Positions 3,885 through 40,370 of a DNA stretch of 40,370 nucleotides are shown here, in pieces; position 1 is the stretch's first letter; the number at the start of each line of letters is the position of its first letter. The notes under the pieces are model-generated. The model worked only from the letters and a program-made list of their open reading frames with translations, had not been told where the DNA came from and did no database searches. The translations under genes were made by a program, and so were the position numbers. Source of the DNA: Bdellovibrionales bacterium (GTDB lineage: Bacteria > Bdellovibrionota > Bdellovibrionia > Bdellovibrionales > UBA1609); contig JAAOIH010000001.1 in assembly GCA_015163875.1 (NCBI GenBank), forward strand, positions 145,641 through 186,010, read 5' to 3'.

Positions 3885-4745
3885 ATGAAAAGTCTTTTAA
3901 ATGCCAAAGGACAGGCCACAGTAGAGGCAGTTTTAATGCTGATTTTGGGCGTATCCATGGTGTTAGGCCTTGTGGCAGGCCTTAATACATCTTTTAAAGT
4001 ATTTACAGAAAACTATTTTGGAAGTTATTTTTTATGCTTAATTAAAAACGGTGAACTTCCAACATTAAAATATGTTTATGTTAAAGGAGTAGACCCTGAT
4101 AACTGTAGTACAAAACACAAGGCATTTACACTCACTGAAGGTTGGGCCAAAAAATCTATTGGAGGGGGATCAGGCTCTGGTAGCTCTGGATCAAAAAATA
4201 AATCTTCTGCTAAAAAAAAATCAGCTTCATCTAAACATCGAATAGCTAGTAGTAAATCTGGATTTAATAATTTTTCAAAAAAAAGATTTAAATCAAGGAG
4301 AGGAATAAGCAAAGGCTCAGGCGGGGCGGGGTCTTCTGGAAAAAATAAAAAAGATAAAGACGGAGACGGAATCTCTGGAGGAGCAAGCGTTGGCACTTAT
4401 GGAAAATTATCTAACGGAAATGACGGCGGCGTAAGAATTATAAGAATTAAACGAAGGTCATCTGGGCGTGGCAAAGGATCTCATAATTTGTACAAAGACC
4501 CAGGGGATAAAAAAATTAAAACAAGTGGCTCTATAAATAAGTCTTCTGAAGCAGGATATGGACAAAAAAATAAAACTCGTTTAAAAATAGACAGAACGGT
4601 TGCAAAAACAAAAATAAAGAAAGAAGAGGGCTTTAAATTTAATTTTTCAACCGTTATGAGATTTTTAATTATTGTGTCCTTGATAATTGTAATTATTATT
4701 GTTATCGGTGGACAGCTATTAAGTATTAGTAAATCTTTTGATTAG
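3885..4745 (+). CDS. prepilin/TadE-like membrane protein with long basic Ser/Gly/Lys linker and second C-terminal membrane segment
   Basis: 286 residues. The N-terminus 'MKSLLNAKGQATVEAVLM', followed by ~20 hydrophobic residues, matches a class III (type IV prepilin/TadE/Flp-like) signal: short basic leader, G-Q, Glu at the fifth position after the Gly, then a hydrophobic helix. After a short Cys-containing part (~45-85), residues ~95-245 are low-complexity Gly/Ser/Lys/Arg. Residues ~257-281 form a strong second transmembrane helix ('LIIVSLIIVIIIVIGG'). Pilins do not normally end in a membrane helix, so this is probably an envelope tether or assembly factor rather than a filament subunit (inference). 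There is no strong ribosome binding site. nadE follows 26 bp downstream. The pilus operon near 18-23 kb could supply a processing context, but no prepilin peptidase is in the window. Confidence 0.6.
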   Translation: MKSLLNAKGQATVEAVLMLILGVSMVLGLVAGLNTSFKVFTENYFGSYFLCLIKNGELPTLKYVYVKGVDPDNCSTKHKAFTLTEGWAKKSIGGGSGSGSSGSKNKSSAKKKSASSKHRIASSKSGFNNFSKKRFKSRRGISKGSGGAGSSGKNKKDKDGDGISGGASVGTYGKLSNGNDGGVRIIRIKRRSSGRGKGSHNLYKDPGDKKIKTSGSINKSSEAGYGQKNKTRLKIDRTVAKTKIKKEEGFKFNFSTVMRFLIIVSLIIVIIIVIGGQLLSISKSFD

Positions 4746-26492: not shown

Positions 26493-27920
26493 ATGAACTT
26501 TAAATTATTTTATAACATTTCTGAACTATTAAGCTTAAAAAAAGTAGCTGATAAACATGGGCGCAATATTACAGAGTCTGATTTTACTATTATAAAAAAA
26601 GCTGCAATTATTTCTTACAAAGGTAATATTGTTTGGGTTGGAAAATACAAAACAATTAACCAAAGTTTAATAAAACAATTAATTAAAACTTATAAAATTA
26701 CACAAACTTTAAAAAAATATTCATTAAATGACTCTTTTGTTATGCCATCTTTTGTAGAATGTCATACACATTTATTATTTGGAGGTAACAGAACTTCTGA
26801 ATTTAATTTAAGACAAAAAGGAGTTTCTTATTCTAAAATTGCAAGTCAAGGTGGTGGAATTTTATCAACAGTAAAAGAAACAAGAAAGCTTTCGTTAACA
26901 GAACTTAAAAAATTAGCCCAACAAAGATCAAAAGATTTTTTATCACAAGGTGTAACCAGCTTAGAGATAAAAAGTGGTTACGGATTAAATTTATCTAGCG
27001 AAATAAAAATGCTACAAGCAATTAAGTCTATTAAAAATTTAAATGTTATTTCAACTTTTTTAGCACTGCACACTTTGCCAAAAGAATTTTTATCTAAAGA
27101 GCAATATTTTAACTTTGTAATAAATAAAATATTACCAGTGGCTGTAAAAAAACAATTAATAAATAGAGTAGATATTTTTGTAGAAAGCATGGCATTTAAT
27201 AAAAAACACATGACAAAATTATTTAAAGCAGCCGATGCTTATAATTTAAATTTAAGTGTTCACTCTGATCAATTAAGCAAACAGGGTTCTTCTTGTTTGG
27301 CAGCAAAACTTGGTGCAAGTTCTGTAGACCATGTTAATTTTGTTACTAATTCAGAAATTAAATATTTATCTAAAGCTAATGTTAGTAATGTTTTTTTGCC
27401 AGGTGCAGATTTTTATTTAAAAATGAAATATCCACAAGCTCGTAAATTTTTAGACTCAGGCGCAAGGGTAGCACTAGCAACAGATTATAATCCAGGCACT
27501 TGCCCATGTAATAATATTGAATTTATTGGCTTACTTGCAAGATTAGAAATGAACATGAACATACAAGAGGTAATTACAGCCTACACAGTTTCGGCGGCCC
27601 ACGCCTTAAATATACAAAATAAAGTAGGCTCTTTAGAAGTCGGAAAGCAGGCAGACTTTATAAGCTTAAATAAATCTTACGATCAATTATTTTATTCAAA
27701 TACACATAACAATTCGCCAATAAAATCAGTTTACAGATTGGGAGCTTTGGTTGCATCTAAAGGGCAGGTAGTAGTAGAGTATGCTTTGTTAATGGTTTTG
27801 TCTGTAGCAATAGCAATATTATTAGTTGATAAAACTATAAGTAGAAACCCTGACAATCAAGGTTTTATTGTAAAAAAATGGCAAAACATTTTAGAAGTTA
27901 TCGGAAAGGATGACCAATAA
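26493..27920 (+). CDS. hutI: imidazolonepropionase fused to a prepilin-like hydrophobic tail
   Basis: 475 residues. Residues ~1-422 are imidazolonepropionase: metal-binding H91 and H93 in 'VECHTHLLFGGNR', 'LEIKSGYGLNLSSEIKML', 'SVHSDQLSKQG', 'SVDHVNFV', 'ALATDYNPGTCP' and 'VGSLEVGKQADF'. It opens the imidazolone ring to give formiminoglutamate. Normal family members end near 'GALVASKGQVV' (~405-425 residues). Here the frame continues 50 residues: 'KGQVVVEYALLMVLSVAIA' (starting at K423) then a polar tail to Q475. The extension looks like a class III/TadE/Flp prepilin signal and helix. No strong internal start (a TTG at 27747 has a Shine-Dalgarno only 2 bases away) supports a separate gene. 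The stop overlaps the start of the MFS gene. Confidence 0.9.
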   Translation: MNFKLFYNISELLSLKKVADKHGRNITESDFTIIKKAAIISYKGNIVWVGKYKTINQSLIKQLIKTYKITQTLKKYSLNDSFVMPSFVECHTHLLFGGNRTSEFNLRQKGVSYSKIASQGGGILSTVKETRKLSLTELKKLAQQRSKDFLSQGVTSLEIKSGYGLNLSSEIKMLQAIKSIKNLNVISTFLALHTLPKEFLSKEQYFNFVINKILPVAVKKQLINRVDIFVESMAFNKKHMTKLFKAADAYNLNLSVHSDQLSKQGSSCLAAKLGASSVDHVNFVTNSEIKYLSKANVSNVFLPGADFYLKMKYPQARKFLDSGARVALATDYNPGTCPCNNIEFIGLLARLEMNMNIQEVITAYTVSAAHALNIQNKVGSLEVGKQADFISLNKSYDQLFYSNTHNNSPIKSVYRLGALVASKGQVVVEYALLMVLSVAIAILLVDKTISRNPDNQGFIVKKWQNILEVIGKDDQ

Positions 27921-36964: not shown

Positions 36965-39217
36965 ATGTACGGATTACGAATAATTTTTATTTCAATTTTT
37001 ACAGTTTTTTTAATATCTTTTAAATCACATGCCCTTGATATAGAAGTTATTTTGCCTAAAAATACAAAAACAATATCTGTTGAAATGCAAAAAATGTTTG
37101 ATCATATAAAGTCAGTTGTTCCAAATCAAGTTTCTGAATTGTTAAACAATAAATTAATTTTAGATTTTTCTAAAAAAAAGGTAGATTTTAAAATTCAATG
37201 TCCAAAAAATTTAATAAAAAATAGCCAATCATTTTTAGAAAATCCAGAAGAAGTAGAAAACAACTATGCAAATGTAGTTTCATTTGACGACATTGTAGTT
37301 CCTGCTGAAAATTTAACAAAACAATATGTTAGCGTTCCATCTTTAAATCGTAATTGGAATAACATAACAGAGTATCCTTTAAATGTTATGCTTGTTAATA
37401 AAGGTTTTTTAAGCAAAGAAGTTTCTACTTTTCCAACTTGTTATATACCTGCAAATTATTTTTCTAAAATAGATTATTTAGAGGGACAAATATTAAGAAA
37501 TATTGGAAAAATATGGAATCGCAAAGCTAAATTACAATCTAGTTTTTTAAAAAGCAAAGAAAGAGTTCGCCAATTTTCTGACTCTTCGTTATTTTCACAT
37601 TTAGATAATTGGGGTTCTTATACAGATGTTAATAACAATAAAAATATTTGGAAAGGTGATAAATTAAAATTAGTTGCACCTGCAGTTAGAATTTCACCTC
37701 TTCAAAATTTTAGCCTAGAGGATAGCTTTAGTATTTATTTCGAAAAATTTTTAAATGACAAAGATTTTGCTTGTAAAAAACCAGCAACACATATGTATTT
37801 TAAAAAAATTATGAATTTTTCTCCATTTGGAATTAATGAGTGCAAAAATTTAAACACTAAAATTTATGGTGGATTTTTAAACAAAAATACTTTTAATTTA
37901 GATCCATCAAGAATTAAAGAAATTCATATTTTATTAGCAGGCCCAGGAAAGGCTATGATGAGCAGATGGGGACATACAATGTTCCGCCTAGTTGTTTGCG
38001 AAAAAGGAGAAAGCGGCAGTGATTGCGTTTCTAATAATTTAGATGACATTGTTTTAGGATTTAGAGCCTATGTTGGTGATATGCAAATTAATCCTATTAA
38101 AGGAGTATTTGGAAAATACCCAAGTTTAATATTTCCAGCAAAAATGTCTGATATGAAAAATGAATACAATCGCACAGGATTACGCGACTTAACTAGTATT
38201 CCAGTAAATTTTACTAAAGAAGAAAGAAAACTATTTTTATATAAAACTTTGCAAGATTTTTGGTCTTATAGAGGAAAGTATTATTTTTTAACTAATAACT
38301 GTGCAACAGAATCAAATGATTTTTTAATGGGAAGTTTTTTGTCTAGTCCAAAAAAATCTTATTTATTACATAAACTATTGGGGAGAACTTTAACTCCAAC
38401 TGGAAGTATTTCGGATATTAAAAAAGCAAAAAATAATGCCGAATATAAAGATATAAAAAATACTTTTGATTTAACAAAATTAAATAAAAAAAATAAAGTA
38501 GCTAATAGAGATTATGTGTCTGCGTCTTATAGACCAACATTGCAAAAATTAGTAAGCCTTGTTAAGCCTTCTCTTACTATTAAACAAAGTAAAACTTTAT
38601 ATTGGAACAACGGCGATGATGAATTGTTAAATGACATTATCAAAAAAGAAAAATTAGATGCAAAATCTTTTATTAAGCCAGAGATCCAAGATAATAGAGT
38701 AGAAATGTTTGCAAGTTTACCAATTAAAGAAAGAGTAAGGCTTTATAAAAAATTATTAAAAAACAATCCAAAATATGCAATCTCGTTAACTTTATTAGAA
38801 ACTTACATAAAAAAAGGATTAGAAAAAAGTATTAAATCTAATGCTGTGTCTTTAGCTATAAATGTAAAAAACCCAAGTCCAGCAGCTAAAAAAGTTTTAG
38901 AGGCTTTTAAAAAAGTTACTAAAAGCCATATTCAAGCTCATTCTTTTTACTCTTATGGAGTTCCTTCACGAGCAGAAGTAAAAAGTTTTTTAAAAAAGTT
39001 AAGTAAAGAATATAAGCTTAAAAAAAGTGACATTACTCTTGGCGATGATGAATCTATATTAGAAGGTCATGTATGGGACTGGGAAGACGAACTTATTGAG
39101 AGAAGTGAAAATTTAGCAAAAATTATATTTCCAGAGTGGTCTAAAGAGTTAAAAGAAATTGAAAATTTATTAAAATCTTTAAGAGAGTATCCAAAAACAA
39201 AAACACTTTCTTTTTAA
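36965..39217 (+). CDS. large exported DUF4105 (Lnb N-terminal periplasmic) protein
   Basis: 750 residues with an AGGAGG ribosome binding site 5 bases before the ATG. Residues 1-24 are a signal peptide ending 'SFKSHALD'. The central DUF4105-type domain (~315-470) shows 'HILLAGPGKAMMSRWGHTMFR' in pieces: 'LAGPGKAMMSRWGHT' with H337, 'DIVLGFRAYVGD' and 'YYFLTNNCATE' with N445 and C446. Conserved His and Cys in this family resemble a papain/NlpC-like arrangement, so a peptidase or amidase activity is possible but unproven. The N-terminal ~310 residues and Lys-rich C-terminal ~270 residues match nothing I recognise. The gene stands alone, between two terminator-like hairpins. Confidence 0.75.
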   Translation: MYGLRIIFISIFTVFLISFKSHALDIEVILPKNTKTISVEMQKMFDHIKSVVPNQVSELLNNKLILDFSKKKVDFKIQCPKNLIKNSQSFLENPEEVENNYANVVSFDDIVVPAENLTKQYVSVPSLNRNWNNITEYPLNVMLVNKGFLSKEVSTFPTCYIPANYFSKIDYLEGQILRNIGKIWNRKAKLQSSFLKSKERVRQFSDSSLFSHLDNWGSYTDVNNNKNIWKGDKLKLVAPAVRISPLQNFSLEDSFSIYFEKFLNDKDFACKKPATHMYFKKIMNFSPFGINECKNLNTKIYGGFLNKNTFNLDPSRIKEIHILLAGPGKAMMSRWGHTMFRLVVCEKGESGSDCVSNNLDDIVLGFRAYVGDMQINPIKGVFGKYPSLIFPAKMSDMKNEYNRTGLRDLTSIPVNFTKEERKLFLYKTLQDFWSYRGKYYFLTNNCATESNDFLMGSFLSSPKKSYLLHKLLGRTLTPTGSISDIKKAKNNAEYKDIKNTFDLTKLNKKNKVANRDYVSASYRPTLQKLVSLVKPSLTIKQSKTLYWNNGDDELLNDIIKKEKLDAKSFIKPEIQDNRVEMFASLPIKERVRLYKKLLKNNPKYAISLTLLETYIKKGLEKSIKSNAVSLAINVKNPSPAAKKVLEAFKKVTKSHIQAHSFYSYGVPSRAEVKSFLKKLSKEYKLKKSDITLGDDESILEGHVWDWEDELIERSENLAKIIFPEWSKELKEIENLLKSLREYPKTKTLSF

Positions 39218-39431: not shown

Positions 39432-39489
39432 ATTAATGAGAAAGCTTTCTAATATATGAATTATGTATATAAAAAACTTTCTCATTAAT
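39432..39489 (+). promoter_or_regulatory. 13-bp leader hairpin near the predicted transcript start
   Basis: ATTAATGAGAAAG (39432-39444) and CTTTCTCATTAAT (39477-39489) are perfect reverse complements around a 32-base loop. A competing 12-bp palindrome, AGAAAGCTTTCT (39439-39450), overlaps the left arm. The position at the predicted 5' end suggests an mRNA-stabilising stem or a switch between two folds (inference). Confidence 0.5.
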
Positions 39490-39528: not shown

Positions 39529-40370
39529 ATGAAAAAAATGTTATTATTTAGTGCTGTAGCTTTAATGGCTGTAGGCGCACAAGCTGAAGGGACTTTTGAA
39601 ACTACAAGCAATGTTGCAAGTAGTAAAAAATCTGCTAAAGCAAACAAAGTAAGAAAAGATGTGGATCAATCTAGCCAAGGGACATCAAACACTGCTGATG
39701 ACGCTACTAGAGGAGTTTCTGGTTCTAGTGAAAATGTTTTCTCTAGCAACTCTAAAGCTGCTAAAAAGCGTAGAAAGAATGCTGGTATCTCTGGATCTTT
39801 TGAGTCAACTTCTAACGCTGTTTCTAGTGGCGTAAAAAGAACTGCTAAAGCTGCAAGAAAAGGATCTAACGGAATTTCTGAGTCTACTCAAGGAACTTCT
39901 AACGCTGTTTCTAGCAAAAGCAAAAAAGCATCTAAAAAGTTAAACAAAGGTGCTAAATATATTGCTGGATCTTTTGAGTCAACATCTAACGGTGTTTCTA
40001 GTACTGGAAAAAAAGCTGCTAAAACTGCAAAAAAAGGTGCTAAAGGAATCTCTGGTTCTGTTCAAGCAACTTCTAACGCTGCTTCTAGTGCTGGAAAAAA
40101 AGCTGCTAAAGCTGCAAGAAAAGGATCTAACGGAATTTCTGAGTCTACTCAAGGAACTTCTAATGTTATCTCTAGCAAAAAATCTAGCAAAAAATATAGC
40201 TACGCAGATCAAGAAGTTATTGCAGACCAAGCTGCTGTATTTGTAGCTACTGGTGAAATGGGAACTGACTTTGCTCAATTCTATAACACTTTTAACGCAA
40301 ACCATGAAGAATCTTTTTCTCCAGAATTTGTAGCTATTAATGTTGAAGATGCTTTAGTTTACTACATTTC
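39529..40370 (+). CDS. exported Lys/Ala/Ser tandem-repeat protein, 3' end beyond window
   Basis: Open from the ATG at 39529 (TAGGAGG 5 bases upstream) to the window edge, 280 codons with no stop. Residues 1-19 are a signal peptide ending 'VGAQAEG'. Residues ~20-89 hold degenerate units. Residues 90-205 are four 29-residue repeats of the form S-x-(E/Q)-x-TSN-x-x-SS followed by a KKAAK-x-A-(R/K)-KG basic part, and a partial fifth follows. From ~225 the protein changes to a non-repetitive acidic domain ('YADQEVIADQAAVFVATGE', 'FAQFYNTFNANHEESF'). The repeats look like histone H1-type Lys/Ala helices, yet the protein is exported, so binding to polyanions such as LPS, DNA or the cell wall is conceivable (inference). 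Codon use (GCT, TCT) is typical of a highly expressed gene here. Confidence 0.85.
   Translation, partial: MKKMLLFSAVALMAVGAQAEGTFETTSNVASSKKSAKANKVRKDVDQSSQGTSNTADDATRGVSGSSENVFSSNSKAAKKRRKNAGISGSFESTSNAVSSGVKRTAKAARKGSNGISESTQGTSNAVSSKSKKASKKLNKGAKYIAGSFESTSNGVSSTGKKAAKTAKKGAKGISGSVQATSNAASSAGKKAAKAARKGSNGISESTQGTSNVISSKKSSKKYSYADQEVIADQAAVFVATGEMGTDFAQFYNTFNANHEESFSPEFVAINVEDALVYYI
39796..40143 (+). repeat. four 87-bp tandem repeats within the exported basic protein gene
   Basis: Units start at 39796, 39883, 39970 and 40057, each exactly 87 bp, with a partial fifth from 40144. A 61-bp segment at 39842-39902 recurs without change at 40103-40163, offset 261 bp (three units), showing recent duplication or gene-conversion-like exchange. 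Confidence 0.9.

Follow-up and report, generated by a model that had tools for sequence, protein, structure and literature searches.

A truncated gene at the end of a 40,370-nucleotide stretch of DNA from a Bdellovibrionales bacterium (the window; contig positions 145641-186010 of G000:C11) encodes an apparently exported, basic and repetitive protein, and it directly follows the sole DUF4105/Lnb_N gene found in this genome. The chances appear to us evenly balanced that this protein is a divergent DUF2388-type partner of the DUF4105 enzyme, with a linker that has been amplified and made basic, and that it fills the slot generally reserved for such a partner. The host is a reduced-genome relative of Bdellovibrio with AT-rich DNA. 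DUF2388 is a family without known function, and DUF4105 has recently been tied to lipid or acyl transfer. The finding of a conserved, overlapping pair of the two across Gammaproteobacteria and Bdellovibrionota provides a shared context for both. It also replaces the idea of a secreted histone, as first put forward for the repeat protein, with a testable pairing of a DUF2388-type partner and DUF4105, and the repeat protein shows how the linker of such a partner could be remodelled by repeat amplification.

The repeat gene and its array

The open reading frame is real. It starts at an ATG at position 39529 of the forward strand, with an AGGAGG site just ahead, and remains open for 280 codons up to the end of the window (39529..40370). 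Base 40370 is also the end of the contig (186010 of 186010), so that the truncation stems from the assembly rather than from where the window was drawn. No other contig of the assembly overlaps this end beyond 19 bp, so the gene, which a genome search finds in one copy, could not be completed. The two assemblies compared within the genus, the window's own and that of a congener, break in the same neighbourhood; the contig of the congener (L013 / G001:C26) stops partway through the DUF4105 gene, the remainder of which is absent from the assembly, leaving the slot of the repeat gene uncovered. In the window, the repeat gene is separated from the DUF4105 gene by 311 bp, a gap that allows no translational coupling, and has its own leader. 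This leader harbors a long hairpin (inverted repeat I4, 39432..39489, forward strand; RNA fold -22.2 kcal/mol) that is far more stable than shuffled sequences (z -4.84).

The first 19 residues of the protein (39529..39585, forward strand), MKKMLLFSAVALMAVGAQA, are followed by EG and, read by eye from the translation, look like a classical Sec signal peptide. Repeat-like material reaches back to this signal. A degenerate region (39586..39789, forward strand), which carries older boxes in the form of TSN at residues 26 and 52 and SSN at residue 72, is followed by four 87-bp units of 29 residues in register (39790..40137, forward strand; residues 88-203), as defined by TRF and unit alignment. TRF itself places the tandem array at 39806-40163, with a period of 87 bp, 4.1 copies and a score of 366. 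Each unit is composed of an x-TSN-x-V-SS box and a basic amphipathic segment, and a fifth TSN box follows the four units, such that the array proper covers approximately residues 88-214. The TSN boxes, at residues 94, 123, 152, 181 and 210, are spaced by exactly 29.

The first-pass annotation described exact 87-bp repeats and four near-identical 29-residue units. The tandem period, the 29-residue unit, the TSN box and the basic segment are all upheld, but the exactness and near-identity are not, since the units are 63-87% identical as DNA and 48-72% identical as protein. Exact identity is confined to one 61-bp block, the longest exact repeat, which is found at 39842..39902 and again, 261 bp or three units away as originally noted, at 40103..40163 (both on the forward strand). 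As the units differ at many sites elsewhere, this identity points to recent local exchange or duplication rather than to general identity, and the single block is the support for the active repeat exchange that had been proposed. Collapse of the array during assembly, raised at the same time as a possible source of the repeat number, is unlikely because no exact repeat exceeds 61 bp and the units can be told apart.

The array (residues 86-214) contains 15.5% Lys, 15.5% Ala and 21.7% Ser, and has a net charge of +19 over its 129 residues. Many proteins of this AT-rich genome are rich in Lys, with most of those in the window containing approximately 9-13% and some up to 18%, whereas the Ala and Ser contents of the array exceed those of every other window protein tested. 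For the basic segments, each 18 residues long, the hydrophobic moments are 0.50-0.58, values that are equalled or exceeded by a fraction of only 0.000-0.003 of shuffles of the same residues, and if helical they would form amphipathic basic helices. A single-sequence AlphaFold model places long helices over these segments at low confidence (mean pLDDT 50.8) and is too poor for a comparison of folds.

The array gives way to an acidic C-terminal segment, SYADQEVIADQAAVFVATGEM... (40189..40368, forward strand), and the protein after the array has a net charge of -6 over 66 residues. The segment is cut by the contig end, with probably only few codons missing. From its motif and its length we suspect a divergent DUF2388-type domain.

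The DUF4105 enzyme and its usual partners

The gene directly before the repeat gene (36965..39217, forward strand) encodes an exported protein of 750 amino acids. It matches the DUF4105/Lnb_N family (Pfam PF13387; E 1.1e-19, 71.2 bits) and keeps the conserved catalytic His (in WGHTMFRL) and Cys (in NNCA) of the permuted NlpC/P60 type, which together place it among the Lnb_N enzymes; in alignment A1 these residues, H88 and C197, are invariant in the DUF4105 proteins, including that of the window. According to PMC12994826, DUF4105 is of the permuted NlpC/P60 type and includes Lnb, the lipoprotein N-acyltransferase of Bacteroides. The enzyme of the window is probably envelope acyltransferase-like, handling acyl groups or lipids. 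The same genome also encodes an ordinary Lnt (TIGR00546, 186.9 bits, above the cut-off), and the DUF4105 enzyme therefore need not be a lipoprotein N-acyltransferase. An ABC1-type kinase-like gene stands upstream of DUF4105 in both the window and the congener, so that an adjacent partner, if the genus has one, could only lie downstream, at the repeat protein.

The first clue to such a partner is that the DUF2388 (PF09498) genes of Bdellovibrio genomes mostly adjoin a DUF4105 gene. For the survey, 80 loci (L083-L162) were fetched with DUF4105 alone as the query, blind to DUF2388. A strong DUF2388 match is present in 55 of these loci, with one more (L084) having a weak match further away, and a PF09498-type reading frame lies directly upstream of DUF4105 in 54 of the 80. 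In most Gammaproteobacteria the two genes overlap by 4 bp, which we read as translational coupling; negative gaps beyond 4 bp in the locus table are an artefact of over-long mechanical reading frame starts. In Pseudomonas and Xanthomonadales, two or three DUF2388 genes are sometimes found in a row before DUF4105 (for example L121, 2760-5814). A structure model of DUF2388 has three confident helices, and a Foldseek search with it against the PDB returned nothing. The pairing is not described in the literature searched on the two families, the incomplete coverage of which makes this weak evidence of novelty.

The remaining loci belong mainly to the Bacteriovoracaceae and other Bdellovibrionota, and mostly have a small exported protein beside DUF4105, either up- or downstream, with a short, similar C-terminal segment. 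Where no DUF2388 is detectable in a Bdellovibrionota locus, the slot is usually filled by an exported protein of 90-160 amino acids, often directly downstream of DUF4105; that of L107, for instance, is ADQDAAVYLAEGG. The Bacteriovoracaceae slot protein matches DUF2388 by profile (P 1.6e-6). Within the window's own family, a locus (L122, equivalent to the L074 locus of G138) has a DUF4105 gene whose product is 42% identical to that of the window, followed by a 108-residue exported protein. This slot protein has no DUF2388 similarity detectable by sequence, which argues that the slot evolves fast. More distant DUF4105 genes in the same bacterial family (L079, 480-953; L080, 802-1320) adjoin other small exported proteins, one of which we take to resemble DUF3015, and DUF4105 may thus have several kinds of partner.

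Resemblance of the repeat protein to DUF2388 proteins

The DUF2388 proteins of Pseudomonas, Xanthomonadales and Bdellovibrio share a general layout with the repeat protein: a signal peptide (in the repeat protein as judged by eye), a Ser/Thr linker that in some of them contains TS(N/D) boxes, a gene beside DUF4105 and, as a tentative point of resemblance, the motif D-x-AA-x-(F/Y)-(V/I)-A after the linker with approximately 45-50 residues from there to the end. Boxes of the form TS(N/D)x(T/V/I)(S/T)S stand just before the DUF2388 domain in 16 of 65 linkers (mean for shuffled linkers 0.2), a trait of a minority of members. In Gammaproteobacteria these boxes include TSDATSS, TSDVTSS, TSNGVSA and GTSNGTS, and the TSNAVSS, TSNGVSS and TSNVISS boxes of the window have the same form. 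The last window box is followed by DQAAVFVAT, and in L149, with approximately the same spacing, by DDAASFVAS; the window protein has 48 residues to the contig end at this point, where a DUF2388 domain has approximately 45-50.

The last box together with D-x-AA-x-FVA scores 9.6 bits, a value reached by 5 of 20,000 shuffles, against a profile of 22 members with a TS(N/D) box that were chosen after the resemblance had been seen. With a profile of all 71 DUF2388 members the score is 9.3 bits and is reached by none of 5,000 shuffles. In a direct comparison with L149, which was picked for its TSN box, 1 of 1000 shuffles reaches the observed match. Other comparisons give no significant similarity: aligning the C-terminus, as a lone sequence, with DUF2388 in hhalign gives P 0.67, a glocal alignment over the full domain gives Z 1.8 with 12% of unrelated C-termini scoring as high, and the whole reading frame is not among the top DUF2388-profile matches in its own window. 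A profile search finds no DUF2388 anywhere in this genome. As the repeat protein has no PF09498 match at E 10, against a gathering cut-off of 25 bits, it is not filed as a DUF2388 member. It also differs in its linker, which is repetitive and approximately 190 residues long compared with about 30, and which is rich in Lys, at 15.5% in the array compared with 0-9% in the relatives. This repeat-expanded, Lys-rich form is absent from every other locus examined. Position beside DUF4105 is a frequent trait of DUF2388 genes, but not a defining one in Pfam, and, with exported proteins being common, adjacency in one genome is weak when taken alone.

Homology searches bring no closer relative into view. 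Profile searches with the whole repeat protein match no Pfam or NCBIfam family, as the hits to 'Defensin propeptide' in Pfam (E 0.18) and to 'PglY' in NCBIfam (E 1.1) represent composition or signal-peptide noise, and the acidic C-terminus matches neither collection even at E 10. Among 59 related genomes the full protein recovers itself alone together with chance-level matches. Viral contigs yield no homologue of the protein, plasmids yield none with the C-terminus as the query, and viral and plasmid searches with the neighbouring DUF4105 protein found nothing. It had been suggested that homologues with the same acidic C-terminus be sought; a search of 141 genomes of the order with this segment likewise returns only itself and chance-level matches, but the gene context points to a DUF2388-type partner of DUF4105.

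A possible role and its alternatives

If the repeat protein is indeed such a partner, we infer that it would reside in the periplasm or face the outer membrane. The short Ser/Thr linker of its relatives, with one or two TS(N/D) boxes, would have grown by tandem amplification to approximately eight, each added unit bringing with it one basic amphipathic helix. After Sec export, the C-terminal segment would associate with the product of the DUF4105 gene, a cysteine enzyme of the permuted NlpC/P60 type, and the long basic arm may lie against an anionic surface formed, for example, by LPS, phospholipid head groups or peptidoglycan, where it would hold or aim the enzyme and its partner. A broader proposal, tentative and rather doubtful, would make DUF2388 and DUF4105 a widespread pair of envelope enzyme and partner with translational coupling, in which the partner linker has here turned, through tandem amplification of its box, into an extended basic arm; this arm would anchor or display the enzyme at an anionic surface, which might be that of a different cell.

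The main alternative is an independent cell-surface or secreted binder of polyanions, either an adhesin or a protein that binds LPS or the DNA of biofilms, which lies beside DUF4105 by chance. The mycobacterial HBHA is a Lys/Ala-rich surface adhesin of this kind. It too is exported or surface-located, its basic Lys/Ala helices form a tail with possible polyanion binding, and as a counterexample it shows that the earlier statement, by which secreted proteins do not usually have Lys/Ala repeats, is too strong. The repeat protein differs from HBHA and other Lys/Ala-rich surface proteins in the TSN/Ser box of its units, and no sequence relation was found. The apparent signal peptide, the net charge of +19 and the basic amphipathic helices are what would be expected of a polyanion binder, the separate leader and 311-bp gap set the gene apart from DUF4105, and the homology to DUF2388 is not significant. 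However, the TSN box form and D-x-AA-x-FVA occur in the order and at the spacing that are right for DUF2388 proteins, and the gene occupies what is the partner slot of most Bdellovibrionota DUF4105 loci. We regard such a chance neighbour as conceivable but somewhat improbable.

Weak constraint on a low-complexity exported protein, with repeats that drift neutrally and Lys that stems mainly from the AT-rich genome, would fit the similar pN (0.24) and pS (0.25) between units, the Lys content of the window proteins in general and the detection of the protein in one genome alone. It sits poorly with Ala and Ser contents above those of all other window proteins tested, with the maintained TSN register and with basic segments that are more amphipathic than shuffles, and we consider it unlikely. 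A true histone-H1-like nucleoid protein, the N-terminus of which merely resembles a signal peptide, is highly improbable. The histone-H1-like label given in the first-pass annotation holds for composition, in that histone H1, Hc1 and the AlgP-type proteins are also rich in Lys and Ala, but not for family, as no H1 or Hc1 model of Pfam or NCBIfam matches the protein. This, together with the acidic C-terminus, the good signal peptide and the Ser/Thr-rich boxes, led us to reject the histone reading. The exported, basic and repetitive character given in the first-pass annotation is supported.

Two other proteins of the window also have unusual compositions or arrangements. The protein encoded at 3885-4745, for which no Pfam family was found, has a pilin-like N-terminus (GQATVEAVLML), a basic middle rich in Lys, Gly and Ser and a C-terminal membrane segment, with a net charge of +12.9 per 100 residues overall. 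The protein encoded at 26493-27920 resembles imidazolonepropionase-type amidohydrolases and continues at its C-terminus into pilin-like sequence (KGQVVVEYALLMVLSVAIAILL), in an apparent fusion.
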